Source of the DNA: Salinicoccus sp. Bachu38
GTDB taxonomy: Bacteria; Bacillota; Bacilli; Staphylococcales; Salinicoccaceae
Reading direction: 5' to 3'
Assembly (NCBI RefSeq): GCF_038561955.2
Contig: NZ_CP138333.2
Coordinates: 2,356,001 to 2,420,000 of the forward strand
DNA length: 64,000 bases
Positions 40,571 through 63,277 of the stretch are shown piece after piece. The first letter of the stretch is position 1; each line of letters opens with the position of its first letter. The position numbers and the translations under genes are program-made. The notes beneath the pieces are model-generated. The model saw only the letters and a list, made by a program, of their open reading frames with translations. It was not told the origin of the DNA and did not search any database.

Positions 40571-42091
40571 TTAGAAAACGGGAATGGAGCCTTTGCTGGC
40601 AGAAGCGTTCACCCATGTGTCGTTCGTCCAGCCATCCAGGTTGTAGTCGTCCATCGCCTGTTCTACAAATGCTTTGTACTGATCGGCCTGACCAGAGTTT
40701 TGGGCCATTTTGAGTGCATCCAGTCGAATGCCTTCATTGTTGCCCGCATAATTTATTTCATAGAGTTCATTGCGTCCACCGAATTCACTACCTGTTGCAT
40801 CCCAGACCATCTTCAGAAGCTTGACCCTCTCTTCAGCTGTCGTGCCTGTCCCTTTGTAATACTGATCGATATATGGTCTCAGCTCTGGATTCTTGAAGTC
40901 ATTTGCACTGGATGGCAGCGAGATGAGTCCGCCGGCCACAATTTCATTGAATGTATTCTTGACTTTCGGCCATACTGATGGCGCAAACGTTCTATATGCA
41001 GTCGCATAAGTGGAGTTCGGCAGTTTCACACCATTTGGGCCATCCTCCGGATCCAGAGCCATTGATGTTGAAATCGACCAGAACATATTCCTATAGGAAA
41101 TCAGTTCACCGATCCTTGCCTGTACACCCCTGAAATTATCCGTACCTGCCACTTCTGTGGATTTCAGCAGAAGACCTACCATGAAATCCAGCTTCACTGC
41201 AAAACGTGTACAGCCCTGGAATGTGTACCTGTTCAGCCATCCCGTCTTTGGACGGAAGCCGTTCGCTATTTCCACATTCTTATAGGCGAGTACATCCTCC
41301 CAAGGGATGAAGACGTTATCAAGAACTATAATCGCATCATTTTCATCAAAACGGCTTGAAAGCGGATAGTCGAAAGGACTGCCTGTCTTGGAAGCCGCTT
41401 CCTCATAGGATTGGCGGCTGATCACCTTGACACCTGGTGCATTCATTGGCACAAAGAATATCAGGGCATGACTCTGATCACCCTCTCCCAAATCTTGCGG
41501 AGAATAATTCGCCACGAAATTATAGTTCGTCAATGCTGCGGAGGTACCTACCATTTTAGCTCCACTGACTATGATGCCATCATCCTTTTCATCTACTGCA
41601 CGTACAAAGACATCCTTGTTCTCATGGAGTGGCTTATGCCTGTCGATCTGCGGGTTCACTATAGTATGGTTGCAGAACGGCACTTCCTCCTGGCCTTTTT
41701 TATACCATCTTTTGGCGTTTTCTTCGAAACCTTCGTAAAAATCATAGTACGGGCCAAGTGAGCCTAGAAATGCTGCTTTATAGTCGGGCGTCCGGCCCAT
41801 GAACCCATAGCTCATTTTCGTCCATTCAGCCATCGCATCCCTTGCTTCAAGCAATTCTTCCGCACTTTTGGAAGCTTTGAAGAATTTATGTGTATCGAAA
41901 TCTCCAACATCCGATTTCGTCGTCAGTATATCTTTCGTTTTCGGGTCATGCATTGCGTCATATAATTGGGCAACTGACCTGATCGAGTTCTGATATGCAG
42001 GATGCGTCGTTACATCTTCGATGCGCTCCCCATTTAGATATACTTCACGTCCATCTTTCAAACTCTCTATATATTCTTTTCCATCCATCAT
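40571..42091 (-). CDS. HpaB-family flavin-dependent aromatic hydroxylase (copy 1)
   Basis: A 506-residue FADH2-dependent monooxygenase of the 4-hydroxyphenylacetate 3-hydroxylase family, large component. It has GREVYLNGERIEDVTTHPAY, EWTKMSYGFMGRTPDYKAAF, NHTIVNPQIDRHKP, the active-site stretch SSRFDENDAIIVLDNVFIPW and GGLISLPSSANDF. It adds an ortho hydroxyl to a phenol using reduced flavin from HpaC. It differs clearly from copy 2 (53413-54900), so the two probably act on different phenols or are differently regulated. It lies downstream of the PucR-type sensor. ATG at 42091 follows GGGGGT with 7 bases of spacing. Confidence 0.87.
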   Translation of the reverse strand: MMDGKEYIESLKDGREVYLNGERIEDVTTHPAYQNSIRSVAQLYDAMHDPKTKDILTTKSDVGDFDTHKFFKASKSAEELLEARDAMAEWTKMSYGFMGRTPDYKAAFLGSLGPYYDFYEGFEENAKRWYKKGQEEVPFCNHTIVNPQIDRHKPLHENKDVFVRAVDEKDDGIIVSGAKMVGTSAALTNYNFVANYSPQDLGEGDQSHALIFFVPMNAPGVKVISRQSYEEAASKTGSPFDYPLSSRFDENDAIIVLDNVFIPWEDVLAYKNVEIANGFRPKTGWLNRYTFQGCTRFAVKLDFMVGLLLKSTEVAGTDNFRGVQARIGELISYRNMFWSISTSMALDPEDGPNGVKLPNSTYATAYRTFAPSVWPKVKNTFNEIVAGGLISLPSSANDFKNPELRPYIDQYYKGTGTTAEERVKLLKMVWDATGSEFGGRNELYEINYAGNNEGIRLDALKMAQNSGQADQYKAFVEQAMDDYNLDGWTNDTWVNASASKGSIPVF

Positions 42092-42258
42092 AATACATAC
42101 CCCCATTAATAATCTAAAAATTATAAATATTGTACTCTAAGATTATCAGATGAATTCGTATAATTATAGAACACTAAATGTTGTTTATATTATTTGATAC
42201 TGACACTTTTTGTTCATCAATAGTAATCTGTAGAAATACTCGACTCCGCATCGTTGTT

Positions 42259-44159: not shown

Positions 44160-45581
44160 CTATTCAAAATTCAAGGAAATGTACTTCGTTTCCAGGTAAT
44201 CCTCTATACCATAATAGCCGCCTTCTCTTCCAAGGCCACTTTCCTTGAACCCACCGAATGGTGCCTGTGGTGTCGACGGTCCTCCGTCATTCAGTCCAAT
44301 GATGCCATATTCCAACGCTTCACTGATCCTGATCGCTTCGCCGATTTTCTCTGTGAATACATAGGCGGCCAATCCGTATGGAGAATTATTAGCGCGCTCA
44401 ATCACTTCTTCCTCCTCATGGAATACGGTGATTGGCAGCAATGGTCCGAATGTCTCTTCATGCATGCAGAGCATCTCATCAGAAACACCGGTAACAACAG
44501 TCGGCTGATAGAATAGCCCTTCGCCCCGGCCGCCCCCACACACAACGGTACCTCCTCTGTCTACTGCATCCTTCACCTGATTATCTACTGTCTCCACTGC
44601 AGAATTATCGATCAATGGGCCGATATCCGTACCGGATTCAAGTCCATTGCCCATATTCAACCCGGAGACTGTTTCTCTGAGCTTTTCGTTGAAAGCCTCC
44701 TCTACCGAAGCATGTACATATACTCGATTGGTACAGACACATGTCTGGCCGGCATTGCGGAATTTCGACATGACCACACCACTTACCGCTTTATCCAAAT
44801 CAGCATCTTTTGTGATGATGAAAGGTGCGTGTCCTCCGAGTTCAAGTGATATCTTTTTCATGGTATCCGCGGAATCCTTCATCAGCTGCTTGCCGACTCC
44901 TGTAGATCCTGTAAAAGTGAGCTTCCTGACCCGGCTATCCTGGGTCCATACCTCTCCAATCTGACGGGAGCTTCCAGTGATGATGTTGATGACGCCTTTT
45001 GGCACACCGGCAGCTTCTGCCAATTCGACCAGCTTGAAAGCAGTCAGCGGGGTCTGGGAGGCTGGTTTCACGACCACGGTACATCCCGCAGCCATTGCCG
45101 GCCCCACCTTACGCGTAATCATGGCAGCCGGAAAATTCCATGGTGTGATTGCTGCAACTACACCAACCGGCTGTTTTGTTACGAATAGACGCTTATTTCT
45201 GTGGGAAGCCGGTATGATGTCCCCGTAGATCCTTTTGCCTTCCTCTGCATACCAGGATATATAGCCATTGGCATAATCCACCTCGCCGATTGCTTCCTTC
45301 AAAGGTTTCCCCTGTTCTTCAGTCATGATCCTGCCAATTTCTTCCCTATGTTCATGGATCAGCTGATGCCATCTGAAAAGGTAGGCACTGCGTTCCTCAG
45401 CCGTAAGCGCCCGCCATTCCTTCAATGCTGCAGCCGCTGCATCTACAGCAGCTTTGGCTTCACCGCTTCCTCCCTTAGGGACGGAAGCGATCGTTTCGCC
45501 CGTGGCTGGATTGGTGACATCCATCTGTTCGAGTTCTTTCCCAGTCCATTCGCCATTGATATACATTTCAACATTTGCCAT
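44160..45581 (-). CDS. Succinate-semialdehyde dehydrogenase-like aldehyde dehydrogenase
   Basis: A 473-residue ALDH close to GabD. TPWNFPAAMITRKVGPAMAA is the substrate-tunnel region, LTFTGSTGVGKQLM the cofactor region, SLELGGHAPFIITKDA holds the general-base Glu, and FRNAGQTCVCTNRVYVHA the catalytic Cys with the second Cys two residues on, as in redox-switched SSADHs. In this cluster it would oxidise succinic semialdehyde, an end product of homoprotocatechuate degradation, to succinate. It follows HpaF by 23 bases. RBS GGAGG. Confidence 0.85.
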   Translation of the reverse strand: MANVEMYINGEWTGKELEQMDVTNPATGETIASVPKGGSGEAKAAVDAAAAALKEWRALTAEERSAYLFRWHQLIHEHREEIGRIMTEEQGKPLKEAIGEVDYANGYISWYAEEGKRIYGDIIPASHRNKRLFVTKQPVGVVAAITPWNFPAAMITRKVGPAMAAGCTVVVKPASQTPLTAFKLVELAEAAGVPKGVINIITGSSRQIGEVWTQDSRVRKLTFTGSTGVGKQLMKDSADTMKKISLELGGHAPFIITKDADLDKAVSGVVMSKFRNAGQTCVCTNRVYVHASVEEAFNEKLRETVSGLNMGNGLESGTDIGPLIDNSAVETVDNQVKDAVDRGGTVVCGGGRGEGLFYQPTVVTGVSDEMLCMHEETFGPLLPITVFHEEEEVIERANNSPYGLAAYVFTEKIGEAIRISEALEYGIIGLNDGGPSTPQAPFGGFKESGLGREGGYYGIEDYLETKYISLNFE

Positions 45582-45604: not shown

Positions 45605-45988
45605 TTATTTTTTATATCTTCCGTGAATATTATTCTTCTTGTAAGTTGGGTTGGTAAATTCGTACAACTCCATTGAGAGGGCAAGATACCTTTTTTGGTA
45701 TATTGGTTCAAAGTAATCTGTAATGACACTGAAGAGATTGTCACACAGTTCTTTCTTGACCGCTTCAGAGCGTCCACCGCCAAGTTTTAATGTAATGTGC
45801 ACAAACGCATCATCTTCTGTGCCATCTGCAACACGGTAATCCTCAATTTCAATCGCCCTTGTACGCAATCCCCCAATTGGAATGACATCCGAATGGGAGA
45901 GCAGGGAGGCATTTGCCTGTTCGAGAAGTTCATCCACCTCGAACGCACCCTTCAGGTTGGATGTGTATTCTATATAGAGATGTGGCAT
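45605..45988 (-). CDS. hpaF: 5-carboxymethyl-2-hydroxymuconate isomerase (HpaF)
   Basis: A 127-residue tautomerase-superfamily protein beginning MPHLYIEYTSNLK. Removal of Met exposes the catalytic Pro, and the start is nearly identical in known HpaF/CHMI proteins. GLRTRAIEIEDYRVADGTED and FVHITLKLGGGRSEAVK are further CHMI segments. It ketonises 5-carboxymethyl-2-hydroxymuconate after the HpaE step. RBS AAGGAGGAA. It is 32 bases after HpaG2 and 23 before the SSADH gene. Confidence 0.92.
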   Translation of the reverse strand: MPHLYIEYTSNLKGAFEVDELLEQANASLLSHSDVIPIGGLRTRAIEIEDYRVADGTEDDAFVHITLKLGGGRSEAVKKELCDNLFSVITDYFEPIYQKRYLALSMELYEFTNPTYKKNNIHGRYKK

Positions 45989-46020: not shown

Positions 46021-46782
46021 CTACTGCTTGATATCCGCCTCTTCCCCTACGATGGTATTGACGAGACGACCAACACCTTCAACCTCAGTAATCACTTCAT
46101 CCCCGACTTTAGTATCAACAGACCCTTTAGGTGTACCGGTAAGGATGATATCGCCTTTGTTCAAGGTCATGAAGCTGCTCAGGTACTCTATGAGATCAGG
46201 GACTGAAAAAATCATATCTGCTGTGGTCCCTTCCTGTACGACCTCTCCATTCACCAAGGTACGCAACTTGAGGTTCATCGGTTCCTCCACATCTTCCTTA
46301 TCTACAAACCATGGGCCGATTGGTGTGCACGTATCACGATTTTTAACTCTGAGGTTGGGACGATAATAGTTTTCAAGATAGTCCCGCAGGGCATAATCAT
46401 TTGCTACTGTATAGCCGCTTACATAATCATAGGCATCTTCCTTGGAGATGTTCTTCCCGGCTTTTCCAATCACTACAGCAAGCTCACATTCATAGTGCAT
46501 AAATGTCACATCTGCAGGGCGGTATGTCTTCCCCCGGTGGCCTATGAAAGTATTCGGCCCCTTCAGGAATACAAGCGGTTCCTTGGGCGCTTCCTTAAAG
46601 GACAGCTCAGCTGCATGGTCTGCATAGTTGAGACCAAGGGTGAAGACCGTCTGAGGTTCGACCGGAGGCAGCCAGATCACATCATGCTCCTGGACAGTTC
46701 TGCCATTTTCGAGCTTTATACCTGAGTCCGTCTCCACGCCATTATGAATCAAACCATCTACTGCGATTCTTGCATGCTTCAT
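46021..46782 (-). CDS. hpaG2: HpaG2: C-terminal-half homologue of the HpaG isomerase/decarboxylase
   Basis: A 253-residue FAH-fold enzyme corresponding to the second half of enterobacterial HpaG: VFTLGLNYADHAAELSFKEA, PLVFLKGPNTFIGHRG, TFMHYECELAVVIGKAGKNI (metal Glu residues), YALRDYLENYYRPNLRVKNR and GTPKGSVDTKVGDEVITEVE. Together with HpaG1 it decarboxylates 5-oxopent-3-ene-1,2,5-tricarboxylate and isomerises the product. Its start overlaps the HpaG1 stop by four bases. Confidence 0.9.
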   Translation of the reverse strand: MKHARIAVDGLIHNGVETDSGIKLENGRTVQEHDVIWLPPVEPQTVFTLGLNYADHAAELSFKEAPKEPLVFLKGPNTFIGHRGKTYRPADVTFMHYECELAVVIGKAGKNISKEDAYDYVSGYTVANDYALRDYLENYYRPNLRVKNRDTCTPIGPWFVDKEDVEEPMNLKLRTLVNGEVVQEGTTADMIFSVPDLIEYLSSFMTLNKGDIILTGTPKGSVDTKVGDEVITEVEGVGRLVNTIVGEEADIKQ

Positions 46783-47567
46783 TTTCTTTTGCCTCCTGCC
46801 ACTTGATTCTCATCCATCACTTCGTTCTCCAGAACACCGATGCCTTCCACTTCCACTTTGACCGTGTCCCCGGCCCTAAGCAATGGCATGTTTTCGGGTA
46901 CACCGACCAGCAGAACATCCCCTTCGTAAAGCGTCATGAACTCAGTGACGTCCGTCAGAAGTTCTTCCACTGAACGGATGAGATTGGATGTGTTATTTTC
47001 AGCCTTGAGCTCTCCGTTTACATACACGGAGATTTTCAAAGCGTTTGGATCATCGACAGAATCCCTTTCTGTTATCCATGGACCGATCGGACAGAAACCA
47101 TCCCTTGCCTTTTCCTTGTAGGCAGGCCTGTAGATACTTTCATGCGGAATGCTGATGTCATTGACGATCGTATAACCCGCTACATGATCGAGGGCATTTG
47201 GTTTTTCAAGTCTGGTGGCCGTCTTTCCGATCACCACTGCCAGAGCGGCCCCTGCTGAAAGCGCCTCTTCACTTTGCGGCAATGGTACAGCTTCCCCGTC
47301 CCCGATATATGTATTGATCGGTTTGATATAGAGTATGGGTGCTTTTGGAGGTGCTTTGTAGGGGTCTTCATTCAATTGCCCCTCATACTGCTCGTAGGCT
47401 CCCTTGTAATTGAGAAGTGTGCCATAGACCGTCCCGGTAATCGGGACATCAAATTTGAAATCCGAAATATTATGCTGTTCTGCATCAAGCGTCACTCTAT
47501 CTGGTCCTTCAAACAGACCTTCCTGCATCAACTGTATGCCTTGATGCTTGAATTTGATGTTTACCAT
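46779..47567 (-). CDS. hpaG1: HpaG1: N-terminal-half homologue of the HpaG isomerase/decarboxylase
   Basis: A 262-residue FAH-fold protein matching the first half of HpaG: DPYKAPPKAPILYIKPINTY, AGAALAVVIGKTATRLEKPN, NDISIPHESIYRPAYKEKAR and DGFCPIGPW. HpaG is a fused tandem in Escherichia coli; here the halves are separate, overlapping genes, as in several Gram-positives. About 30 extra N-terminal residues precede the usual start. RBS AAAGGAG, 11 bases before the ATG. Confidence 0.88.
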   Translation of the reverse strand: MVNIKFKHQGIQLMQEGLFEGPDRVTLDAEQHNISDFKFDVPITGTVYGTLLNYKGAYEQYEGQLNEDPYKAPPKAPILYIKPINTYIGDGEAVPLPQSEEALSAGAALAVVIGKTATRLEKPNALDHVAGYTIVNDISIPHESIYRPAYKEKARDGFCPIGPWITERDSVDDPNALKISVYVNGELKAENNTSNLIRSVEELLTDVTEFMTLYEGDVLLVGVPENMPLLRAGDTVKVEVEGIGVLENEVMDENQVAGGKRK

Positions 47568-47650: not shown

Positions 47651-48574
47651 TTATGAATTTTGTTTTGCCAACTTACCGTATTCCACCAATGTTTCCTTGA
47701 TTTCCTCCTGCAGTTCCTCAGAAGGCAGTCCCATAGGCATCCTGAGAACAGGTTCTATCATGCCCATCATGCCGAGTGCCGCTTTAACAGGCGCTGGGTT
47801 GGTATCCTTGAAGAGCACATCATTCAGGTTCATCAGTTCGAAATGAAGATCCTGCGCCCTTTTGATATCGCCGGCTTCCCATGCATCATGCATTTCAGCC
47901 ACTTTGGCAGGTTCCACGTTCGCTGTTGCACTGATGGAACCAGCTCCTCCGATTGCAAGCATTGGATAGCAAAGCAGTTCGATTCCTGAATAGAGAAGGA
48001 AATCCCTGCCGCAATGGAGCATTACGCGGTTTACATGTTCGAAGTCCTTGTTGGACTCTTTTGCACCGACGATGTTCGGGCAGTCCCTGACAAGTCTCGC
48101 CATCGTCTGTACTGTCATATTCTGCGCAGTACGTCCAGGGATGTTATAGATGATGATCGGAAGGTCTACAGAATCCGCCACTGTCTTGAAGTGCTGATAC
48201 AGCGCTTCCTGGTTCGGCTTGTTGTAGTAGGGAACGATCACCATCGCGGCATCAGCACCCATCTCCTCAGCCTTTTTGGTGAGGTACATGGTCTCATCGT
48301 GGTTTACGGAACCCGTACCTGGGGCAAACGGCACACGTCCATCAATGGCCTTCATTGCATTTTCCATCACCTGTACCCGCTCTTCTGTAGTCAAAGAGCT
48401 CGGCTCTCCTGATGTACCTGTTACAGAAATGGCATGTGTGCCATTTTCCAGCTGATATTCGATCAGTTCAGCCTGCTTCTCCAGGTCAAGATCTCCGTTG
48501 GCCTTGAAAGGTGTGATGACCGGACAGATTGATCCTCTTAGTCTCTGTTTGATATCTTCATATTGATTACTCAT
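47651..48574 (-). CDS. DapA-family aldolase in the hpa cluster
   Basis: A 307-residue class I aldolase of the dihydrodipicolinate synthase/N-acetylneuraminate lyase family. Schiff-base K172 in IVGAKESNKDF, Tyr143 in IIIYNIPGRT, and the carboxylate-binding loop TGTSGEPSSLT (about 52-62). Since no HpaI-type class II aldolase is in the cluster, it is a candidate for cleaving 4-hydroxy-2-oxoheptanedioate to pyruvate and succinic semialdehyde. A true lysine-pathway DapA would be expected among lysine genes. RBS AGGAGG; 55 bases after hpaD. Confidence 0.83.
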   Translation of the reverse strand: MSNQYEDIKQRLRGSICPVITPFKANGDLDLEKQAELIEYQLENGTHAISVTGTSGEPSSLTTEERVQVMENAMKAIDGRVPFAPGTGSVNHDETMYLTKKAEEMGADAAMVIVPYYNKPNQEALYQHFKTVADSVDLPIIIYNIPGRTAQNMTVQTMARLVRDCPNIVGAKESNKDFEHVNRVMLHCGRDFLLYSGIELLCYPMLAIGGAGSISATANVEPAKVAEMHDAWEAGDIKRAQDLHFELMNLNDVLFKDTNPAPVKAALGMMGMIEPVLRMPMGLPSEELQEEIKETLVEYGKLAKQNS

Positions 48575-48629: not shown

Positions 48630-49613
48630 TCAGATGATCGTATTCGGCTTTCTCTTATCGAGCTTCGGCTGTTCGGTTTCCACTTTTTCCCCTGTATAGA
48701 CGTTCAGGAATGTGGAAGCTTCCTCAAACCAGCTATCCGGTGCTTCATGCCCCCAGAAAGTCTGGCGTTGCGGATCGTCGAGATCCCATTCCACCGGATC
48801 AAAGTCGGAATCCCCTGTGTAATAGTCTCCATTGTACAATTCGATGCGGTGGCCGTCCGGATCCCTCAAGTACAGGAAGAACGCATTGGAGAGCCCGTGC
48901 CTGCCCGGCCCCCTCTCGATGGTCGGTGCAAAGCCTTTTGCTGCAAGGTAGTCACAGCCATCGATCAGACTCATCGGATCCTTCAGCCAGAAGCCGATAT
49001 GATGCAGTCTCGGTCCGATGCTGTTCATGAACGCAGTATCATGGACGCCTGGCTTGCGGTGCAGCCATGCTGCCCACACTTCGTCGCTGCCTTTTGTCGT
49101 CGTATATTCTGAGCACGCAAATCCAAGCTTGTCTATATAGTAGTCATAGGCTTTTTGGACATCTGGCACTGCACAGTTGAAATGGTCGATCCTCTGTACT
49201 TTTGCTCCCACATGAATATCAAAGCGCTGTAGCATGCGCTCCACCTTATCCATTTCACAGTAGTATTCGCAAGGAATCCCTGAAACATCCTGTACACGCA
49301 GCGTACGCCCAATTGCAGGCTGCATGCCTTTTTCCATCCAGATCACTTCTGTGCCTTCAGCTTCAAAGAAATCAGCAAGCTTATCCAGATCCTCTTCTGA
49401 ATCCACTCTGTAACTGATTACTTCAACTGCCGCTTCAGGCATTTTCCTAAGCCACAGACAATGGTGGTTATGGTCTTCTATTGCTCTATAGAAGACGTTC
49501 TCATCATCCGACTCCGTCTCAATGAGTCCCAATGATTCATAGAATTCCTTGGATTTTTCCAGATCAGTCACATGCAATACAGCCCGGCCAGTACGTTTGA
49601 TATCAAAATTCAT
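48630..49613 (-). CDS. hpaD: 3,4-dihydroxyphenylacetate 2,3-dioxygenase (HpaD)
   Basis: A 327-residue extradiol ring-cleavage dioxygenase with two VOC modules, as in Brevibacterium and Arthrobacter homoprotocatechuate dioxygenases. The metal ligands are likely H144 (RIDHFNCAVP), H204 or H205 (PRLHHIGFW) and E258 (DGHRIELYNGDYY), with H191 (GVHDTAF) as the second-sphere acid/base. It opens the catechol ring to 5-carboxymethyl-2-hydroxymuconate semialdehyde using Fe or Mn. The ATG at 49613 follows GAGGGG; eight upstream residues in frame have no site. Confidence 0.93.
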   Translation of the reverse strand: MNFDIKRTGRAVLHVTDLEKSKEFYESLGLIETESDDENVFYRAIEDHNHHCLWLRKMPEAAVEVISYRVDSEEDLDKLADFFEAEGTEVIWMEKGMQPAIGRTLRVQDVSGIPCEYYCEMDKVERMLQRFDIHVGAKVQRIDHFNCAVPDVQKAYDYYIDKLGFACSEYTTTKGSDEVWAAWLHRKPGVHDTAFMNSIGPRLHHIGFWLKDPMSLIDGCDYLAAKGFAPTIERGPGRHGLSNAFFLYLRDPDGHRIELYNGDYYTGDSDFDPVEWDLDDPQRQTFWGHEAPDSWFEEASTFLNVYTGEKVETEQPKLDKRKPNTII

Positions 49614-55117: not shown

Positions 55118-56011
55118 ATGGATATGAAGCATCTCAAATATTTCTATACCATTGCCGCTGAAGGGCAGATTACAAGGGCTGCAAAAAAACTTCATATTGC
55201 CCAGCCCCCTTTGAGCCAGAGCCTGAAAAATCTTGAACGGGATATCGGCACCCCATTGTTTGACCGCAACGGCAGGCGGATGGAATTGACCGAAGCAGGA
55301 AAGACCCTCTATAGCAGATGTGAAACACTCTTTCAACTTTTCGAGGAGACACTACTGGAAGTTCAGGATACTGGCGAAGGCATGAAGGGGAAATTGAATA
55401 TTGGATGTGTAAAATCAGCATTCTCCCACATTCCCGGGAAAATGAAAGAATTCGGAAAAATTTATCCCGATATAACATTCGAGTTGAGGGAGGGAGACTC
55501 CGCCTCCCTGGCCAACGATCTGAAAAACCGCCGGATAGATTTTGCAGTCGTCCGCCTTCCTCTGGAACTCGATGAATTCCACCATAAACGCCTGCCCGTC
55601 GAAGACTATGTAGCCGTGCTTCCAAATGAATGGCTTGTCGAAGGCGATGACAGTACGATAGGGATGGACCTACTATCAGCTTTACCTTTATTGCTGCTCA
55701 GGCGAACCAGCGGCCGTGGGCAATATGAGCTTATCCTCGACCAGCTTAAAAATTTCACTCCTTCCCCAAAAGTCGTCACCATGTGTCCGGATGTCGATAT
55801 GATATTGGAACTGGTAAGCGAAGGCGTCGGAGCTACAATTGTTCCGGAACTTGCCTATCAGAAGCACAACCCCGGGAAAGTGAAGATGATGAAGATAAAA
55901 GAAGATATTCTCCATTCTGAATCAGCCGTAATCTGGTTGAAAGAAAGGTACTTGTCAAAAAGTGCCCAAAAGTTCATAGAACTCTTCGATCAAGAAAATG
56001 AAATGGATTAA
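55118..56011 (+). CDS. LysR-family regulator, divergent from hpaB
   Basis: A 297-residue LysR protein. The helix-turn-helix QITRAAKKLHIAQPPLSQSL (about residues 17-36) with the QPPLSQ motif and LERDIGTPLFDRNGRRMELT are standard; the effector domain includes RRIDFAVVRLPLELDEFHHK. Divergent placement opposite hpaB with a dyad between makes hpaB and its own gene the likely targets. The ATG at 55118 follows AAAGGGAG; an upstream in-frame extension has no site. Confidence 0.9.
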   Translation: MDMKHLKYFYTIAAEGQITRAAKKLHIAQPPLSQSLKNLERDIGTPLFDRNGRRMELTEAGKTLYSRCETLFQLFEETLLEVQDTGEGMKGKLNIGCVKSAFSHIPGKMKEFGKIYPDITFELREGDSASLANDLKNRRIDFAVVRLPLELDEFHHKRLPVEDYVAVLPNEWLVEGDDSTIGMDLLSALPLLLLRRTSGRGQYELILDQLKNFTPSPKVVTMCPDVDMILELVSEGVGATIVPELAYQKHNPGKVKMMKIKEDILHSESAVIWLKERYLSKSAQKFIELFDQENEMD

Positions 56012-56033: not shown

Positions 56034-56762
56034 ATGCATATGGTCACAGCAACACATGAACCCACTATGGACACCCCGGACCAGGGTGAATATCTTCAAT
56101 TTAGAAATGAGCTGATGCAAATGAGCAAGATTGTAAAAGCCGAGTCCCTCCACATACAGGCCTACCATCTGATTAAGGAATCCATTATGAATGGTAAGCT
56201 GAAGCCTGAAGACAGAATCGTCGAAGCGCGGACTGCCAAAGAACTTGGAATAAGCCGTGGGACTGTTAGGGAAGCAGTCCGGATGCTGATCCAGGATGGA
56301 CTGCTCCTCTATAACGATGGACTGGTAAAGGTTTATAACCCGTCGAAGAAGGATATCGTCGATATCTTTGAATGCCGGGAAAGCCTTGAGGTACTGGCAA
56401 TTCGTCTCGCGCTAAAAAATATGGGGGAGGATACACTCAGACGGCTTGCACAGAATATCGAAGAAACCAAAAAACTTGATGCTTCCTCCTCTGAGCTCGG
56501 GACTTACGACCAGGAATTCCATACGATCATCATAGAGAGCTCCGACAACAATCACCTTATTAAGCTGCTCGAAGCAATCAAGGTGAAGATTCACTATATG
56601 AGGAACTGCATGGTCGGAGAACCATTCTATACCTCCTTCATTGAGGAACATCAAAGAATTTACGATGCTCTAAGCGATGGCGACGCACAACGGTCAGAAA
56701 AATTGATGAGCGAACATGTTCAAAAAGCCCTAAAAGGTGTATTGATGCATATTGAAGCCTAA
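56034..56762 (+). CDS. GntR-family regulator (FCD type)
   Basis: A 242-residue GntR protein: winged helix in about residues 38-105 (AYHLIKESIMNGKLKPEDRI, ELGISRGTVREAVRMLIQDG) and an FCD domain with DQEFHTIIIESS, EEHQRIYDALSDGD and EHVQKALKGVL, which carry the metal/ligand residues. It follows the LysR gene by 22 bases and ends in a terminator that overlaps its stop. It may regulate the PheDH-dehydrogenase operon that begins directly after. No good RBS precedes the first ATG; internal starts at about 56116-56122 are possible. Confidence 0.87.
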   Translation: MHMVTATHEPTMDTPDQGEYLQFRNELMQMSKIVKAESLHIQAYHLIKESIMNGKLKPEDRIVEARTAKELGISRGTVREAVRMLIQDGLLLYNDGLVKVYNPSKKDIVDIFECRESLEVLAIRLALKNMGEDTLRRLAQNIEETKKLDASSSELGTYDQEFHTIIIESSDNNHLIKLLEAIKVKIHYMRNCMVGEPFYTSFIEEHQRIYDALSDGDAQRSEKLMSEHVQKALKGVLMHIEA

Positions 56763-56794
56763 TTCAATGACGAATTAGGCTTCAATATTTTTAT
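56753..56794 (+). terminator. Terminator of the LysR-GntR unit
   Basis: TGAAGCCTAATTC (56753-56765) pairs with GAATTAGGCTTCA (56772-56784), followed by ATATTTTTATT. The left arm includes the GntR stop codon. Confidence 0.85.
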
Positions 56795-56800
56795 TTACAG

Positions 56801-56829
56801 TTGACGGTTAACTGTCGGGTGTATATAAT
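56801..56829 (+). promoter_or_regulatory. Promoter of the thioesterase-PheDH-oxoacid dehydrogenase operon
   Basis: -35 TTGACG (56801-56806), 17-base spacer, consensus -10 TATAAT (56824-56829). A dyad CAGTT-N7-AACTG (56798-56814) overlaps the -35 and is a candidate repressor site. A cre follows downstream. Confidence 0.8.
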
Positions 56830-56868: not shown

Positions 56869-56883
56869 TTGTAAGCGTTTTCA
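56869..56883 (+). promoter_or_regulatory. cre site in the leader of the PheDH operon
   Basis: TTGTAAGCGTTTTCA fits the cre consensus at every position and is the best such site in the window. Located about 35 bases after the predicted transcription start, it would act as a roadblock. Confidence 0.7.
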
Positions 56884-56906
56884 AAAATGGATAGGTGGTG
56901 AATTTT

Positions 56907-57302
56907 TTGAAGGACAGCATTAGAACAGGCATCACACATACCCTCGAAGTGACAGTAACTGAAGAGATGTTTCCCCAGTTCCATGGAGAAGTCGTACATC
57001 CAGTGTATTCAACCGCTTCCATGGTCTACCATATGGAATGCGCATCTCGCGACCTGCTTCTTCCCTACTTGGACGTCGATGAGGAGAGTGCAGGGGCGGC
57101 CGTATCACTCACCCACTCTGCCCCTTCACCACTCGGGTCCAGGGTGGTGCATGAAGCCAAACTTGTACATCTCACCCCTACACGTGCTACGACGGAAGTG
57201 GTGTCACGTAATGCAGAAGGCATCATCGGCAAGGGGGAGGTCGTCCAGGCGATAATGCCGAAACATACCATGAGAAACAGACTGGCGCATCAGAAGGCAT
57301 GA
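56907..57302 (+). CDS. FlK-like hotdog thioesterase
   Basis: A 131-residue hotdog-fold protein similar in outline to fluoroacetyl-CoA thioesterase FlK: PVYSTASMVYHMECASRDLL (the helix with the Glu contributing to catalysis), SAGAAVSLTHSAPSPLGSRV (with the Thr/His pair of this group), and a closing strand ATTEVVSRNAEG. These enzymes hydrolyse small acyl-CoAs to free acids. As first gene before PheDH and an oxoacid dehydrogenase, it may release arylacetate from arylacetyl-CoA. TTG at 56907 after GGTGGTG is the likely start; GTG at 56895/56898 overlaps the site. Confidence 0.78.
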   Translation: MKDSIRTGITHTLEVTVTEEMFPQFHGEVVHPVYSTASMVYHMECASRDLLLPYLDVDEESAGAAVSLTHSAPSPLGSRVVHEAKLVHLTPTRATTEVVSRNAEGIIGKGEVVQAIMPKHTMRNRLAHQKA

Positions 57303-57323: not shown

Positions 57324-58463
57324 TTGAAACAGATGGAATACAGTAAAACGGAAACGAAAGACATGTTTGAAAAGATAGCAGGCCATGAGCAGGTGCTTTT
57401 CTGCAACGATCCGGTAACGGGACTCCAGGCAATCATTGCCATACATGATACGACCCTCGGGCCCGCCCTGGGCGGCACGCGGATGTATCCATACGAAAGT
57501 GTCGATGCCGCTTTGGATGATGTACTTAAGCTTTCAGAAGGCATGACCTATAAATGTGCCGCTTCCGGCCTCGATTTCGGCGGCGGCAAAGCGGTCATCA
57601 TAGCCGATCCTGCAACCGACAAATCCCCTGCCCTTTTTCGGGCATTCGGTCAGTTCGTCGATTCCTTGAATGGGCGCTTCTATACTGGCACTGATATGGG
57701 GACCACAACCGACGATTTTGTGGAGGCCTTCAAGGAGACGCACTTCATCAATGGCATTCCTGAAGAGTACGGTGGCAGTGGGGATTCATCCATCCCTACT
57801 GCACAGGGCGTCCTCTATGCACTCGAAGCGACCAACGAGCATCTGTTCAACAGCCGGGAGCTCGGCAAGCGCAGCTATGCCATCCAGGGACTTGGTAAAG
57901 TCGGATATAAAGTGGCTGAGCAGTTGCTCGAAGCTGGAGCCAAACTCTTCGTTACAGACATCAATGAGGTAGCGCTCCGCAACATCGGGAATTATGCATC
58001 CAGCACCATCGGTGAGCTGACGATCGTGGCCAGCGATGAAATCTATGGTGTTGAAGCCGACATCTTCGTCCCATGTGCAATGGGAGGAATCATCAATGAA
58101 AATTCCCTGAAGGAACTGCAGGTGAAGGCGGTGGTCGGCTCGGCAAACAATCAGCTTTCTGATAGTTCCATGGCAGAGAAGCTACAGAAATCCGGCATAC
58201 TCTATGCGCCTGACTTCATCGTTAATGCAGGGGGACTGATTCAGGTCGCTGATGAACTGTACGGTCCGAATCCAAAACGGGTCCTTGCCAAAACCAAAAC
58301 CATCTACCAATCGCTTCTGAAGATATACCAGCAGGCGGAAATGGACGCGACAACCACTACCGAAGCTGCCAATCAGAAGGTAACACATGTGCTCGAGGAA
58401 CAGAAGCACAGGAACAATTTCTTCTCCAGAAAACGTCGTCCAAAATGGGAAATAAGGGAGTGA
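57324..58463 (+). CDS. pdh: Phenylalanine dehydrogenase
   Basis: A 379-residue amino-acid dehydrogenase. The sequence is very close to my memory of Bacillus badius/Sporosarcina phenylalanine dehydrogenase, including [51 protein letters not shown] and the C-terminal [14 protein letters not shown], and less like leucine dehydrogenase. Catalytic K77 (GMTYK) and K89 (GGGK), D124 (TGTDMG); NAD turn GLGKVG at 189-194. It deaminates phenylalanine (and often tyrosine) oxidatively to the arylpyruvate. TTG start with AGGAGG seven bases before. It directly precedes E1-alpha (4 bases). Confidence 0.9.
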
Positions 58464-58467: not shown

Positions 58468-59580
58468 ATGCATACATCAATCAAAAACAGGAGTGCCCAT
58501 CATCAGGATATTACAGAACAGTTCCCTGTGAAGCAGATTATCGATGGCGAAGGCAACCTCGTCGAGGACACATACCGGAATGAGATTACCGTCGAAAATA
58601 CCAGGAAGTTCTATCGTCAGATGCTGTGCATGCGTACCTTCGATCAGAAAGCGATCAACCTGCAGCGCCAAGGCAGAATCGGAACTTATCCCGGCTTCAA
58701 AGGACAGGAAGCGGCCCAGGTCGGCAGTGCAATGGCCCTCCGGGAGGATGACTGGATGTTCCCCACCTACAGGGACCACGCAGCTAGTATCACGTTCGGT
58801 GGCTCCTACGCAATACTTTCCTCATGGAAGGGCCGGGTCGAGGGCAATCGCCCGCCGGAAGGCCGCAACATCGTTCCTCCTTCCGTACCGATTGCAACAC
58901 AGTTGCCGCTGGCCACTGGCGCAGCAATGGCAAGTAAATACAGGCAGTCTTCGCAGGCGGTCATCGCCTACTTCGGTGACGGGGCCACCTCCGAAGGAGA
59001 TTTTCATGAAGGGATGAACTTCGCCAGCGTATTCAGAGCTCCTGTAGTCTTCTTTAATCAGAATAACCGCTATGCAATCTCCGTCCCTGTATGGAAACAG
59101 ATGAATTCGGAAACCATTGCACAGAAAGCTCTCGCCTATGGCATGCCAGGCGCCCGGGTCGATGGCAATGATGTATTCGCTGTCTACCATGAGACCCTGA
59201 AAGCCCTGGAAAGGGCCAGAAGCGGAGATGGACCGACATTGATAGAAGCAGTCACATGGAGATACGGCGCCCACACAACAGCAGATGACCCAACCAAGTA
59301 CAGAGATAATGAAGAAGAGAACAAAAAGCACATTTTGAACGATCCACTATCGAGGCTTGAAGCATTCATGAAAGCAGAAGGTTATTGGGACGTGCAGTGG
59401 GCAGAAGACATCAAAAAGGAGATAAAGGCTGAAATTGACGAAGCTGTAAAGGAAATGGAAACCATGCCGGAACCGGATGTGAACGACATATATGACCATA
59501 TGTTCGACTCAGCCACATGGCCCATCGAAGAGCAGAAGAAAGCATATATGGAATACCTGAAAGGTGGCTCTGAAAAATGA
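58468..59580 (+). CDS. 2-oxoacid dehydrogenase E1 alpha subunit
   Basis: A 370-residue thiamine-diphosphate E1-alpha of the PDH/BCDH type. GRIGTYPGFKGQEAAQVGSA, MFPTYRDHAASITFGGSYA, and the ThDP motif AYFGDGATSEGDFHEGMNFA ending in NQNNRYAIS are present. VTWRYGAHTTADDPTKYR is the phosphorylation-loop equivalent. With E1-beta and E2 it decarboxylates a 2-oxo acid to acyl-CoA. Co-transcription with PheDH points to phenylpyruvate or 4-hydroxyphenylpyruvate, though branched-chain oxoacids or pyruvate cannot be excluded. RBS AGGGAGTG. Confidence 0.9.
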   Translation: MHTSIKNRSAHHQDITEQFPVKQIIDGEGNLVEDTYRNEITVENTRKFYRQMLCMRTFDQKAINLQRQGRIGTYPGFKGQEAAQVGSAMALREDDWMFPTYRDHAASITFGGSYAILSSWKGRVEGNRPPEGRNIVPPSVPIATQLPLATGAAMASKYRQSSQAVIAYFGDGATSEGDFHEGMNFASVFRAPVVFFNQNNRYAISVPVWKQMNSETIAQKALAYGMPGARVDGNDVFAVYHETLKALERARSGDGPTLIEAVTWRYGAHTTADDPTKYRDNEEENKKHILNDPLSRLEAFMKAEGYWDVQWAEDIKKEIKAEIDEAVKEMETMPEPDVNDIYDHMFDSATWPIEEQKKAYMEYLKGGSEK

Positions 59581-60569
59581 CAACAGTGAAGACCAATAGC
59601 ATGACCCCGGTCCAGGCGATCAATGACGGACTTCGCACCATGCTTCACGAACGTGAGGAGATGGTGGTGCTTGGTGAAGATGTAGGCATCAACGGAGGCG
59701 TCTTCCGTGCAACAGACGGCCTCCAGGAAAGTTTTGGGGAAGATCGTGTGTTCGATACGCCTTTGAGCGAATCGGGCATCATCGGCACCTCCATCGGCAT
59801 GGCCATGAACGGCATGCTGCCTGTCGCCGAAATACAATTCTTCGGCTTCGTCTATCCTGCCTATGAACAGGTCATGACGCATGCCACACGAATGCGCTAC
59901 AGGTCGATGGGCGCTTTTACCGTCCCGATGGTCATTCGTGCACCGTATGGGGCTGGAGTCAGAGCACCGGAGATACATTCCGATAGTATGGAGGCGCTAT
60001 TCACCCATATGCCCGGCATAAAAGTAGTATGTCCCTCCAATGCCTATGATGCAAAAGGGCTTCTCATTTCAGCCATCGAGGATCCCGACCCTGTCCTTTT
60101 CCTCGAACCTCTGAAGCTCTACCGTGCATATAAAGACGAAGTGCCCGAGGGCAAATACGAAGTTGAAATCGGCAAGGGGGAACTGTTAAGGGAAGGAGAG
60201 GATGTCACACTGATCGCCTGGGGAGCGATGGTCCCCGTCATAAAAAAAGCGGCACAGCTGGCGGAGGAAAAAGGAATCGGATGCGATGTGATTGACCTGC
60301 GCACCCTCTCGCCCATCGATAAGGACATCATTTCAGAGTCCGTACAAAAGACCAACCGCTGTGTGATCGTGCATGAAGCCCAGACTACAGGCGGCCTCGG
60401 GAATGACATCATCTCCATCATAAACGACACTTCCTTCCTCTATCTGAAATCACCAATCGAAAGAGTGACTGGAGCGGATGTCCACGTGCCATTCTGGGCA
60501 CTGGAGGAGCATTTTCTCCCGACACCGGAACGGACGATGCATGCCATACAGAAAGTAATGGATTTCTAA
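59577..60569 (+). CDS. 2-oxoacid dehydrogenase E1 beta subunit
   Basis: A 330-residue E1-beta: MVVLGEDVGINGGVFRATDG, DTPLSESGIIGTSIGMAMNG (with the Glu that activates ThDP), VRAPYGAGVRAPEIHSDSME, VCPSNAYDAKGLLISAIEDP and the C-terminal VTGADVHVPFWALEEHFLPT. PYGAGVRAPE differs from the SGGxxGxxHHSQ of pyruvate-specific enzymes in some positions, which may reflect substrate choice. Start overlaps the E1-alpha stop by four bases. Confidence 0.9.
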   Translation: MTTVKTNSMTPVQAINDGLRTMLHEREEMVVLGEDVGINGGVFRATDGLQESFGEDRVFDTPLSESGIIGTSIGMAMNGMLPVAEIQFFGFVYPAYEQVMTHATRMRYRSMGAFTVPMVIRAPYGAGVRAPEIHSDSMEALFTHMPGIKVVCPSNAYDAKGLLISAIEDPDPVLFLEPLKLYRAYKDEVPEGKYEVEIGKGELLREGEDVTLIAWGAMVPVIKKAAQLAEEKGIGCDVIDLRTLSPIDKDIISESVQKTNRCVIVHEAQTTGGLGNDIISIINDTSFLYLKSPIERVTGADVHVPFWALEEHFLPTPERTMHAIQKVMDF

Positions 60570-60582
60570 GGAGGGATCAACA

Positions 60583-61812
60583 GTGGTAGAGGTTAAATTG
60601 CATGATATTGGAGAAGGGATGACCGAAGGGGATATCATCACCTACTTCGTCAAAGAAGGGGAAGACGTCAATGAAGACCAGCCCATCATCGAAGTCCAGA
60701 CAGAGAAGATGGTGACTGAATTGACTGCTCCGAAAAGAGGGAAAATCAAGGATATTTTGGTGGAAGAAGGGGCCACCATATCCGTAGGCACCACCATACT
60801 GACCATAGATGCAGAGAATGGATCCAATGAAGAAGATAAGGCATCACCAAAAGATATTTCCGAGACACCCAAATCATCAGAGCCGGTATCAGGTCATGAT
60901 CGGAAACTGGAAGTGAAGGGTCCTGTCAGAATCAAGGCCGCGCCTTACACCAGAAAGATTGCCAGGGAGCTTGAAGTGGATATCGAACAGGTTCAGGGCA
61001 CCGGTAAAGATGGTCGCATTACAGTCGAAGATGTAAAAGACTTCAAGAGCCCGGGAGAAGCTGCAGATAAAGGGGAAAACGTGGTTACTGCCACCAAGAA
61101 AGCCGCCGAAAGCCCGATGGAAGATGAAAATTGGATTCCATTCAAGGGACGACGCAAAAAGATCGCCAAAAAGATGACCCAGTCCATCTACACGATACCG
61201 CACGTCGCCCATATGGAAGAGGTGGATATGACGGAACTCCTCGCCTTCAGGCAGGAACTGAAGCCTGAAGTTTCCATCTCCATAGCAGCATTCTTCATTA
61301 AAACATTGGCAATCGCACTCAAGGATTACCCGATCTTCAATTCTGAATTGGACGAAGAAAATGGTCGGATCCTTCTCAAGGATTCCGTTCACATGGGGAT
61401 TGCCACAGACACTCCTGAGGGACTGATTGTTCCGGTAATCAGAAATACAGAAGGAAAGCCTCTCTCAGATATTCACAAAGAGATGAAATCACTCACTGCA
61501 AAGGCGATGGAAAACAAGCTTACAGGAAAGGAGGCCACAGGCAGCACATTCACCATCAGCAATGTCGGGCCGCTCGGCAGTATTGGGGCGACACCCATCA
61601 TCAACTACCCGGAAGTCGCTCTGATGGCTTTCCACAAGACCAAAAAGATGCCGGTAGTGGATGAGAACGATGAGATTGTCATCCGTTCCATGATGAACAT
61701 CACATTGACATTCGATCATCGCGTTGCCGATGGAGGGGAGGCAATCGCGTTCACTAACAGGTTTAAGTCACTTCTAGAAAATCCGAAATTGCTTTTATTG
61801 GAACTGGTTTGA
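60583..61812 (+). CDS. Dihydrolipoamide acyltransferase (E2)
   Basis: A 409-residue E2: lipoyl domain (1-78) with lipoylated K42 in VQTEKMVTELTAP, linker, peripheral-subunit-binding domain (about 111-150, AAPYTRKIARELEVDIEQVQ), and acyltransferase domain (about 180-405) with H379 and D383 in FDHRVADGGEA. It transfers the acyl group to CoA. GTG start after AGGAGGG. No E3 gene follows; lipoamide dehydrogenase must come from elsewhere. Confidence 0.92.
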   Translation: MVEVKLHDIGEGMTEGDIITYFVKEGEDVNEDQPIIEVQTEKMVTELTAPKRGKIKDILVEEGATISVGTTILTIDAENGSNEEDKASPKDISETPKSSEPVSGHDRKLEVKGPVRIKAAPYTRKIARELEVDIEQVQGTGKDGRITVEDVKDFKSPGEAADKGENVVTATKKAAESPMEDENWIPFKGRRKKIAKKMTQSIYTIPHVAHMEEVDMTELLAFRQELKPEVSISIAAFFIKTLAIALKDYPIFNSELDEENGRILLKDSVHMGIATDTPEGLIVPVIRNTEGKPLSDIHKEMKSLTAKAMENKLTGKEATGSTFTISNVGPLGSIGATPIINYPEVALMAFHKTKKMPVVDENDEIVIRSMMNITLTFDHRVADGGEAIAFTNRFKSLLENPKLLLLELV

Positions 61813-61840
61813 TGAATGATTAAAACAAAGGGGGATTTCC

Positions 61841-63277
61841 ATGTTCCGTATTAAACCTGCACAAACACCATCGTTATTCGAAGCACTTGCCGTCGTAGCC
61901 GCCATTGTGATCATAATCAGTACGAGCATCATCTATTTCGAAACAGTGCCCCATATACCACTGATGCTCTCACTACTTCTGCTGATCCTATATGGAATGG
62001 CAAAGAAGATACCCTACCAGAAGCTGCAGGAAGGCTTTTCGGAAGGGGCAGTCTCAGGGATGGGGGCTGTATTTATCTTCTTCATGATCGGCATGCTCAT
62101 TGCTTCCTGGATCTATAGTGGCACCATACCGACATTGATCTATGGCGGATTCGAACTTGTTACACCGAACTTTTATCTTGCAGTCGTACTCATCGTCACT
62201 TCAATAGTCGGCATATGTGTCGGCAGTTCATTGACGACGGTGGGCACCGTGGGCCTCGCCTTCATTGGCATCTCAGGTGCCCTCGACATATCATTGGCCA
62301 TGACAGCCGGCGCAATTGTATCAGGTGCATTTTTCGGGGATAAGATGTCTCCACTCTCAGACACAACTAACATGGCATCAAGCATACTTAAAGTAGACCT
62401 TTTCGAGCATATCAAAAACATGATGTGGACGACCATTCCGGCATTCCTGATCGCCCTGATCCTGTTTGCCTTCATGTCGCCGAATATCTCCTCGGCCAAC
62501 TTCGGAGAAATGGAAATCTATCAACAGGGATTGATGGAAACCGGGCTTATCAGCTGGTATAACGCCATCATCCCACTTGGAGTACTGCTTGTCTTCTCAC
62601 TGATGCGGGCACCTGCCCTCATCTCACTTACTGCAGGCATCATCAGCGCACTGGTCCTGTCGGTAATGCATACGGCGCCTTCCATAGGCAGTATATTCGG
62701 CATCCTGTTCGGCGGCTTCGTTTCGGAAACCGGTATAGAACAGATTGACCAGCTGCTGTCCAGAGGAGGCATGGAAAGCATGTTCTTCACCATCGGCATC
62801 GTGCTGCTCGCACTGGGCATGGGCGGACTCCTCTTCAAGCTCGGCATCGTTCCGAGACTATTTGCGGCCATAGAAAGGATGCTCAAAAACGTAAAGAGCG
62901 TAATACTCGGTTCCGCACTCAATGCCATTGGCATCAATATACTTATCGGCGAACAATACCTGTCCATACTTCTTACTACAGAGACTTTCCAGAGGCAGTA
63001 CGAAAAGGTTGGCCTTGAAAACAAGAACCTTTCAAGAGTAGCAGAGGATGCAGGTACCGTCATCAATCCACTTGTACCATGGAGCGTCTGCGGTGTCTTC
63101 ATCGCAAGCGTGCTTGGCGTCCCCACCCTGTCTTACCTGCCGTTTGCCTTCTTCTGTCTGCTCTGTCCGATCCTTACCATTTTCTTCGGCATGACAGGAA
63201 AAACTTTAACTTATACAAAGGCACACGTACAGGAACAGGAAAAAGCGAAACCGCTTGTCCAAGGCGAATTCGGTTAA
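61841..63277 (+). CDS. NhaC-family Na+/H+ antiporter
   Basis: A 478-residue membrane protein with about twelve spans: FIFFMIGMLIASWIYSGTIP, SIVGICVGSSLTTVGTVGLA, GAIVSGAFFGDKMSPLSDTT (the characteristic NhaC motif) and late GTVINPLVPWSVCGVFIASV. NhaC members exchange sodium for protons, and some (MleN) exchange sodium-lactate for proton-malate; within this operon it could export acid end products or take up aromatic compounds, which is conjecture. RBS AAAGGGGG. Last gene before a strong terminator. Confidence 0.9.
   Translation: MFRIKPAQTPSLFEALAVVAAIVIIISTSIIYFETVPHIPLMLSLLLLILYGMAKKIPYQKLQEGFSEGAVSGMGAVFIFFMIGMLIASWIYSGTIPTLIYGGFELVTPNFYLAVVLIVTSIVGICVGSSLTTVGTVGLAFIGISGALDISLAMTAGAIVSGAFFGDKMSPLSDTTNMASSILKVDLFEHIKNMMWTTIPAFLIALILFAFMSPNISSANFGEMEIYQQGLMETGLISWYNAIIPLGVLLVFSLMRAPALISLTAGIISALVLSVMHTAPSIGSIFGILFGGFVSETGIEQIDQLLSRGGMESMFFTIGIVLLALGMGGLLFKLGIVPRLFAAIERMLKNVKSVILGSALNAIGINILIGEQYLSILLTTETFQRQYEKVGLENKNLSRVAEDAGTVINPLVPWSVCGVFIASVLGVPTLSYLPFAFFCLLCPILTIFFGMTGKTLTYTKAHVQEQEKAKPLVQGEFG

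Follow-up and report, generated by a model that had tools for sequence, protein, structure and literature searches.

We analyzed 64,000 nucleotides of the Salinicoccus sp. Bachu38 genome (contig NZ_CP138333.2, positions 2,356,001 to 2,420,000, forward strand; here called the window), in which genes for a phenylalanine dehydrogenase (PheDH), a 2-oxoacid dehydrogenase (E1-alpha, E1-beta and E2) and an FlK-like thioesterase lie divergently from an hpa operon for 4-hydroxyphenylacetate degradation. We consider it likely that this locus is an aerobic tyrosine-degradation unit running from PheDH through an arylpyruvate dehydrogenase, FlK and the hpa enzymes to succinate-semialdehyde dehydrogenase (SSADH), with all catalytic activities predicted from sequence. 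PheDH, which is of an Asn143 type, would deaminate tyrosine, and also phenylalanine, to the arylpyruvate, which a dedicated E1-alpha/E1-beta/E2 complex, with its E3 borrowed from elsewhere, would oxidatively decarboxylate to arylacetyl-CoA. The FlK-like thioesterase would hydrolyze this product, most likely freeing 4-hydroxyphenylacetate, which the hpa enzymes would hydroxylate before opening its ring by meta-cleavage, giving pyruvate and succinic semialdehyde; SSADH would convert the latter to succinate. Phenylalanine passing through the same module would yield phenylacetate only. The proposal is built on the gene content of the locus, its linkage across genomes, the pattern at PheDH residue 143, and the finding that neither PaaA/PaaC nor HPPD was matched in this genome.

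Gene content of the two operons

Genes were called by scoring open reading frames (ORFs) against curated NCBIfam and Pfam cut-offs. The FlK-PheDH-E1-alpha-E1-beta-E2-NhaC operon occupies 56895-63277 on the plus strand, with all of its ORFs intact:

56895..57302, plus strand: FlK-like hot-dog thioesterase (PF22636, 96 bits, over the Pfam cut-off)
57324..58463, plus strand: phenylalanine/tyrosine dehydrogenase (PheDH; G122, N143, L305), ELFV domains PF02812 and PF00208 over Pfam cut-offs
58468..59580, plus strand: E1-alpha of a predicted arylpyruvate dehydrogenase (putative substrate), PF00676 (E1_dh), TIGR03181 over cut-off
59577..60569, plus strand: E1-beta of the predicted arylpyruvate dehydrogenase (putative substrate), transketolase domains over Pfam cut-offs
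60583..61812, plus strand: E2 acyltransferase, with lipoyl, E3-binding and catalytic (2-oxoacid_dh) domains over Pfam cut-offs and a DHRVADG motif
61841..63277, plus strand: NhaC-family transporter (TIGR00931 over cut-off)

The hpa operon, which faces this unit, runs from 54900 to 44160 on the minus strand:

53413..54900, minus strand: HpaB, 4-hydroxyphenylacetate 3-monooxygenase oxygenase (TIGR02309, 861.3 bits, over cut-off)
52467..53315, minus strand: RibF-like FAD synthetase (below RibF cut-offs)
52001..52480, minus strand: HpaC-like flavin reductase (PF01613 cut-off reached; HpaC models below cut-off)
51278..51952, minus strand: GntR/FCD regulator inside the hpa unit (family match)
49647..51167, minus strand: HpaE (TIGR02299, 852.6 bits, over cut-off)
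48630..49637, minus strand: HpaD, homoprotocatechuate 2,3-dioxygenase (TIGR02295, 469.3 bits, over cut-off)
47651..48574, minus strand: DapA-like 2,4-dihydroxyhept-2-ene-1,7-dioate aldolase (TIGR02313, 561 bits against a cut-off of 396.7)
46779..47567, minus strand: HpaG1 (TIGR02305, 283.9 bits, over cut-off)
46021..46782, minus strand: HpaG2 (TIGR02303, 413.2 bits, over cut-off)
45605..45988, minus strand: HpaF-like isomerase (NF011605, 100.7 bits, below the cut-off of 215)
44160..45581, minus strand: SSADH (TIGR01780, 661.5 bits, over cut-off)

A first-pass annotation of this DNA had named the principal genes, and its coordinates correspond to intact ORFs supported by the family scans. Its description of two divergent units was right about the facing operons but incomplete, given that the LysR, GntR, RibF-like and second GntR genes were not listed. 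The window PheDH exceeded the cut-off of no NCBIfam model (the best was ScyB, 343.5 versus 600), and both E1-beta (297.8 versus 321) and E2 scored under their NCBIfam cut-offs. E1-alpha, E1-beta and the three-domain E2 make up a 2-oxoacid dehydrogenase gene set that is complete apart from E3, which is absent among the ORFs of the locus. E3-like ORFs occur 3' of E2 in several relatives, as well as within both other complexes of this genome. Since separate 2-oxoacid dehydrogenase complexes can share one E3, the missing local E3 is not disqualifying.

Linkage of the dehydrogenase module with hpa genes

The 29 loci of our PheDH-relative set, all mapped, were chosen by similarity to the window PheDH. 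An hpa cluster was present in 12 of them, with PheDH located between hpaC and hpaG1 in 11, and the co-occurrence on which the first-pass annotation had staked its proposal is thus found in other genomes. The hpa locus of Virgibacillus subterraneus (L028) carries PheDH, E1-alpha, E1-beta, E2, an E3-like gene and NhaC together, and operons of this type could place both halves of the predicted pathway on one transcript. Among 33 genomes of the window's family, the PheDH search gave a match in 27, only 5 of which were at ≥55% identity (G000, G030, G001, G029 and G023); the remaining family matches, at 46-51% identity, look like leucine dehydrogenase (LeuDH). The divergent layout of the window recurs in G030 and in G001, the latter lacking GntR and NhaC there; conservation of the two operons as a unit was a check that the first-pass annotation had proposed, and the junction is conserved. 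In G029 and G023, PheDH lies near genes of the phenylacetyl-CoA (paa) pathway, and the hpa cluster of G023 is on another contig.

In a class sample of 398 genomes, drawn evenly and searched at E ≤1e-120 for PheDH, ≤1e-60 for HpaD and ≤1e-110 for E1-beta, a window-like PheDH was present in 45 genomes, HpaD in 47, and an E1-beta match in at least 191 (other complexes included). Among the matches listed, 41 of the 45 genomes with PheDH had an E1-beta match no more than 6 kb from that gene. The exceptions were G023, G029, G044 and G056, and more distant or split E1-beta ORFs adjoin PheDH in G023, G029 and G056. PheDH and HpaD occurred together in 12 genomes and were ≤20 kb apart in 5 of these, window included, whereas uniform placement would predict about 0.16 such genomes (binomial p ~3e-7, ignoring shared ancestry). 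The comparative evidence favors both operons as one functional unit.

Variants of the arrangement were also seen. In G318, a HisC-family aminotransferase gene (L116, 10205-11311) stands 5' of FlK-E1-alpha-E1-beta-E2 beside hpa, in the usual place of PheDH. An E1-alpha-E1-beta pair of 52-56% identity is found ≤11 kb from HpaD in G053 and G073 (L173-L176), downstream of hpa and accompanied by two ABC ATPase genes; the stretch bearing this pair gave no PheDH or E2 match in either genome.

Residue 143 of PheDH

In alignment, the window PheDH carries Gly122 and Leu305 versus Ala and Val in the genome's LeuDH. Gly and Leu at these LeuDH specificity positions are what we take to be the PheDH signature (G124/L307 in Bacillus sphaericus), and N145 of B. 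sphaericus PheDH is presumably a switch for discrimination between tyrosine and phenylalanine. The B. sphaericus residues G124, L307 and N145 map at a constant offset of 2 onto G122, L305 and N143. A single substitution in that enzyme reportedly raises discrimination of phenylalanine versus tyrosine, going by the title of a 2002 study by Seah et al. that PMC3526519 cites. The B. sphaericus PheDH is treated together with L-dopa in PMC11750938. Gly122 and Leu305 were common to the PheDHs aligned, except in L026, with Ile305, and in L033, a distant PheDH that has Ala122 and Ile305. A single-sequence structure prediction of PheDH was discarded (mean pLDDT 32.9). We predict that Asn143-type PheDH accepts tyrosine as well as phenylalanine.

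We compared residue 143 with gene context for 64 PheDH genes with mapped surroundings (omitting other class-sample rows, L030, L033 and LeuDH), where a paa label required at least two blastp matches to reference paa genes from L021, L025 and L029. The context was hpa only for 15, paa-type only for 23, both for 6 and neither for 20. Residue 143 was Asn in all 15 hpa-only PheDHs and in none of the 23 paa-only ones (20 Val, 2 Ala, 1 Thr), nor in any of the 15 that remain when PaaB, PaaC or PaaD is required. Both contexts together gave 3 Asn and 3 Val, and neither context 10 Asn, 9 Val and 1 Ala. HpaD was present in 28 of 28 Asn143-type genomes, in the locus in 18 and elsewhere in 10 of 10 (the match in G439 has an in-frame stop). 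In the class sample, where the residue was read in 44 of 45 genomes, HpaD was present in 4 of 4 genomes with an Asn-type PheDH versus 8 of 40 others (Fisher p 0.0036, uncorrected for ancestry).

On a PheDH tree of 68 of 79 rows, built with column 143 removed and with near-copies of one genus and L033 excluded, the residue-143 label requires three changes, at least two of them being forced by well-supported branches, and the gene neighborhood differs in accord with the residue at each of the three. Rooted with a LeuDH outgroup, the tree reads as Asn having been gained twice, each time in an hpa-bearing group, and lost once, in L021, which lies near paa-type genes.

Substrate of the E1/E2 module

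PaaB, PaaC or PaaD was found in 17 of the 29 PheDH loci labeled paa; the other 12, L021 among them, had only PaaF/G/H/J-like genes, and some of these stretches may be incomplete. The reference PaaB, PaaC and PaaD of L025/L029 were over their curated cut-offs. In the mapped class-sample genomes (32 of the 45 with PheDH), the paa label applied to 22 and PaaB/C/D to 15. For a module flanked by PheDH as well as by phenylacetyl-CoA pathway genes, the simplest role would be conversion of phenylpyruvate to phenylacetyl-CoA, and the paa neighborhood fits an arylpyruvate substrate better than branched-chain oxoacids or pyruvate. The module E1-beta proteins form a group of 53 rows in the E1-beta tree with support of 94 (an inner group of 46 has support of 99), apart from both the PDH-like and the BKD-like E1-beta of this genome. 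These two belong to separate operons, the PDH-like one at L144 and the BKD-like one, linked to LeuDH, at L145, names that we inferred from gene order and identity.

In G029 (L075-L076) and G023 (L077-L078), PheDH has Ala143 and lies near paa genes. The E1 in these two genomes groups with the window genome's PDH-like E1 and was apparently recruited a second time, independently.

The complexes of some genomes appear to be divided between pathways. All 11 of the genomes with an hpa-linked PheDH that were compared have an E1-beta match at 64-71% identity, plus others at 41-54%. We examined eight of these E1-beta neighborhoods, and in all eight E1-alpha and E1-beta stand among paa-type genes, with PaaD in two of the stretches. 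No E2 match was found in those eight stretches (a second module-type E2 elsewhere in the genomes was not searched for), and PheDH and E2 of the same eight genomes are both in the hpa operon. Two of the eight genomes have two PheDH paralogues, with Val143 in the paa cluster (L148, L151) and Asn143 in the hpa operon (L013, L016); an FlK gene of the L013 genome is located in the paa cluster (L148). In G306 and G342, paa-type and hpa genes form one supercluster that contains PheDHs in tandem; the copy toward paa has Val and the copy toward E1-alpha has Asn. More tentatively, an arylpyruvate dehydrogenase family may stand at a branch between paa and hpa, where two things would set the branch: the PheDH residue (Val for phenylalanine, Asn for tyrosine), which would have switched more than once along with the pathway it partners, and a thioesterase sorting 4-hydroxyphenylacetyl-CoA from phenylacetyl-CoA. 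Some complexes, split between an E1 in paa and an E2 in hpa, would then serve both pathways, and the window genome would be a tyrosine-only end state. We regard this wider scheme as possible and somewhat short of an even bet.

FlK and the fate of the products

All 27 homologues in the alignment retain what we take to be the Thr-Glu-His triad of FlK (T40-E48-H74). A match to PF22636 does not imply specificity for fluoroacetyl-CoA. A search of the window genome (2,617,944 bases, one contig) gave no match to PaaA/PaaC (PF05138), with 4 of 14 control genomes positive, or to HPPD (TIGR01263), with 8 of 14 control genomes positive. PaaA/PaaC was also unmatched in the G030 and G001 genomes. Given these negative results, hpa is the recognizable exit for tyrosine. 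We know of no exit for arylacetyl-CoA from tyrosine, where PaaA/PaaC is unmatched, other than hydrolysis to 4-hydroxyphenylacetate followed by hpa, and FlK is the natural candidate for this release. HpaB requires a 4-hydroxyl, and because PaaA/PaaC and HPPD are unmatched as well, phenylalanine would not be fully degraded and probably stops at phenylacetate in this genome. The first-pass annotation had both amino acids degraded; the tyrosine half would stand, through hpa, and the phenylalanine half is probably incomplete. FlK was present in only 4 of the 15 hpa-only loci, a count that rules it out as an obligate partner of hpa; it may act in sorting or in the recycling of CoA.

Weighing the alternatives

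Several observations weigh against the locus being a tyrosine-degradation unit. An hpa cluster standing alone is the common state: 13 further hpa neighborhoods gave no PheDH, E1 or E2 match, and PheDH or an E1-beta of >60% identity lay ≤20 kb from HpaD in at least 6 of 47 HpaD genomes. FlK is missing from 11 of the 15 hpa-only loci, versus 10 of 23 paa-only loci that have it. The mapped L028 operon shows no FlK and its genome no PaaA/PaaC match, which speaks against a general requirement for FlK. E1-alpha scores over the cut-off of TIGR03181, a model titled pyruvate dehydrogenase E1 alpha. No HpaH hydratase was recognized in the cluster. The GntR operator described below was sought before hpaB and not found, nor was a GntR operator common to both operons. 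There are only three changes on the PheDH tree, so that the residue-143 correlation represents few independent events, and the Val143 PheDH of G240, which lies next to hpa as well as paa genes, does not fit the pattern.

The distribution of FlK bears most directly on the idea that the thioesterase is a CoA-recycling or sorting enzyme and not an hpa feeder, with another thioesterase freeing 4-hydroxyphenylacetate where FlK is absent. In keeping with this, the FlK-less, Siminovitchia-type loci L005 and L007-L010 carry a gene for a 4HBT-family protein 3' of PheDH. We nevertheless find this idea rather improbable, given that the window genome, G030 and G001 lack a PaaA/PaaC match and so have no other known arylacetyl-CoA exit. 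The release of arylacetate by FlK, as the first-pass annotation had it, is consistent with the intact triad and the unmatched PaaA/PaaC, but it is the weakest step. A different possibility is that the products of the FlK operon, phenylacetate and 4-hydroxyphenylacetate derived from aromatic amino acids, are destined for excretion or serve redox balance, with NhaC as exporter, while hpa serves external 4-hydroxyphenylacetate, perhaps taken up via TRAP, and that the adjacency arose by chance or joint transfer. Loci L005-L011 and L027 do have a thioesterase and NhaC next to PheDH-E1-E2 but no hpa, a TRAP operon adjoins hpa, and both the scarcity of PheDH at ≥55% identity in the family (5 of 33 genomes) and the mostly solitary hpa clusters would suit this explanation. 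However, PheDH is embedded in the hpa operon at 11 of 29 loci and HpaD is still present in each of the 10 Asn-type genomes whose locus has no hpa. NhaC was matched at 14 of 28 Asn143-type loci (8 at ≥68% identity, window included, and 6 at 35-40%) versus none of the 36 others, and we judge export to be distinctly unlikely. We give very little credence to E1/E2 being a general pyruvate or branched-chain oxoacid dehydrogenase present by happenstance. The TIGR03181 score and the name of the nearest solved E1-alpha and E1-beta chains, pyruvate dehydrogenase, speak for it, but the genome already has PDH-like and BKD-like operons, the module E1-beta groups apart from both, and an E1-beta match adjoins PheDH in 41 of 45 genomes, among the matches listed. 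The earlier claim that the oxoacid dehydrogenase makes arylacetyl-CoA is thus strengthened by the paa-linked E1/E2 and the separate E1-beta group and qualified by the family score of E1-alpha.

If the tyrosine-degradation proposal is true, it would supply genes for the step from tyrosine to 4-hydroxyphenylacetate in these aerobic bacteria, and a recurrent E1/E2 group that family models name pyruvate dehydrogenase would be reassigned. It would also provide a natural experiment on an amino acid dehydrogenase, one of whose specificity residues changes together with the pathway that the enzyme supplies.

Ring cleavage, neighboring genes and regulation

The prior claim that the hpa enzymes complete ring cleavage stands for HpaB, HpaD, HpaE, HpaG1, HpaG2 and the aldolase, all over their cut-offs, but not for the hydratase step, with no HpaH in the cluster. 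Homologues of TIGR02312 elsewhere in the genome all scored under its cut-off of 351.5 (274.5, 260.2, 180.7 and 97 bits). Some members of the DapA-like aldolase superfamily combine hydration and cleavage. The step may be served by one of the sub-cut-off homologues or by the DapA-like aldolase as a combined hydratase-aldolase. A DapA-like aldolase is present in 12 of 12 hpa loci of the PheDH-relative set and in 11 of the 13 further hpa neighborhoods. The RibF-like gene is placed between hpaB and the HpaC-like reductase gene, and G030 has one too; its product is perhaps a dedicated flavin supply. Beyond the hpa operon, at 40571-44124 (minus strand), a second HpaB-like hydroxylase gene, scoring below the HpaB-2 cut-off, lies next to a gene for a XylR_N/V4R-PucR regulator, and the pair may form a phenol-sensing hydroxylase unit of its own. 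The hpa region is adjoined by a TRAP transporter operon (37495-40338, minus strand) that has a cre-like site, and L019 has a similar TRAP set (59-82% identity) separating hpa from the PheDH module. The cargo of NhaC is possibly an aromatic amino acid or arylacetate. TrpX-like ABC genes were found at 3 of 28 Asn-type versus 16 of 36 non-Asn loci, with the TrpX model below cut-off.

On the plus strand, the LysR gene and then the GntR/FCD gene precede FlK, and the intervening DNA holds predicted control sites:

55073..56011, plus strand: LysR-family regulator (PF00126/PF03466)
56034..56762, plus strand: GntR/FCD regulator (PF00392/PF07729)
56749..56788, plus strand: intrinsic-terminator-like hairpin of 17 pairs at the GntR gene end (consensus match only)
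56800..56815, plus strand: candidate operator GTTGACGGTTAACTGT; it overlaps the -35 region of the promoter-like site before FlK
56869..56884, plus strand: palindromic cre-like (CcpA) site before FlK, 0 mismatches, both strands
54943..54958, plus strand: cre-like site upstream of hpaB, 1 mismatch

The hairpin, together with a promoter-like site 5' of FlK (11 of 12 positions, 56801-56829; consensus match only), makes FlK to NhaC a likely operon separate from LysR/GntR. The LysR product is probably a regulator of the hpa operon; in G023, LysR remains next to hpaB though the PheDH module is on a different contig. The GntR/FCD protein encoded at 56034-56762 probably regulates the FlK-PheDH operon. 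A GntR gene is found 5' of the module in L006, L011, L012, L014, L019, L027 and G030, and a GTTGAC-N-GTTAAC core was present upstream, across the -35 region of FlK, in the six GntR-bearing genomes compared (window, G030, L006, L027, L011 and L019). G001 has no GntR gene, and its upstream stretch has no such core. Scanning with a cre (CcpA) consensus yielded 11 matches at 9 places in the window versus 0.68 expected, among them the sites before FlK, hpaB and the TRAP genes. Both operons may be under catabolite control through these predicted sites.

Comparison with known systems

The first-pass annotation knew of no described pathway with exactly this junction, and we likewise found no account of it in the open-licence literature, which misses most subscription papers. 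The locus shares HpaB, HpaD, HpaE, HpaG1, HpaG2, an HpaC-like and an HpaF-like protein and an adjacent SSADH with the homoprotocatechuate pathway, and differs from it in the divergent or embedded PheDH-E1-E2 genes, the TIGR02313 aldolase, the split HpaG, the RibF-like gene and the lack of a recognized HpaH. The paa loci with PheDH-E1-E2 have the same module, often with FlK and E3, but their product is predicted to stay phenylacetyl-CoA and their PheDH has Val, Ala or Thr at 143. Of the 23 paa-only loci, 10 carry TrpX-like ABC genes and none carries NhaC. The window genome is without a PaaA/PaaC match. We know of no paper on paa loci carrying this module.

Indolepyruvate/arylpyruvate:ferredoxin oxidoreductase (IOR) likewise converts arylpyruvate to arylacetyl-CoA by oxidative decarboxylation, as described in PMC5109826. 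IOR is there a ferredoxin enzyme of anaerobes, whereas a lipoyl-dependent E1/E2 is joined here to oxygen-dependent ring cleavage. The bkd operon with LeuDH, one of which is at L145 in this genome by its inferred name, also has an amino acid dehydrogenase adjoining E1-alpha-E1-beta-E2. It differs in that our PheDH has G122/L305 instead of Ala/Val and in that the module E1-beta falls in a separate group. For Rhodococcus ruber, PMC6498646 mentions PheDH and the homoprotocatechuate pathway separately. The parts of the window locus are of known kinds and their combination appears new, and it reads most simply as a route from tyrosine to homoprotocatechuate via a dedicated arylpyruvate dehydrogenase.

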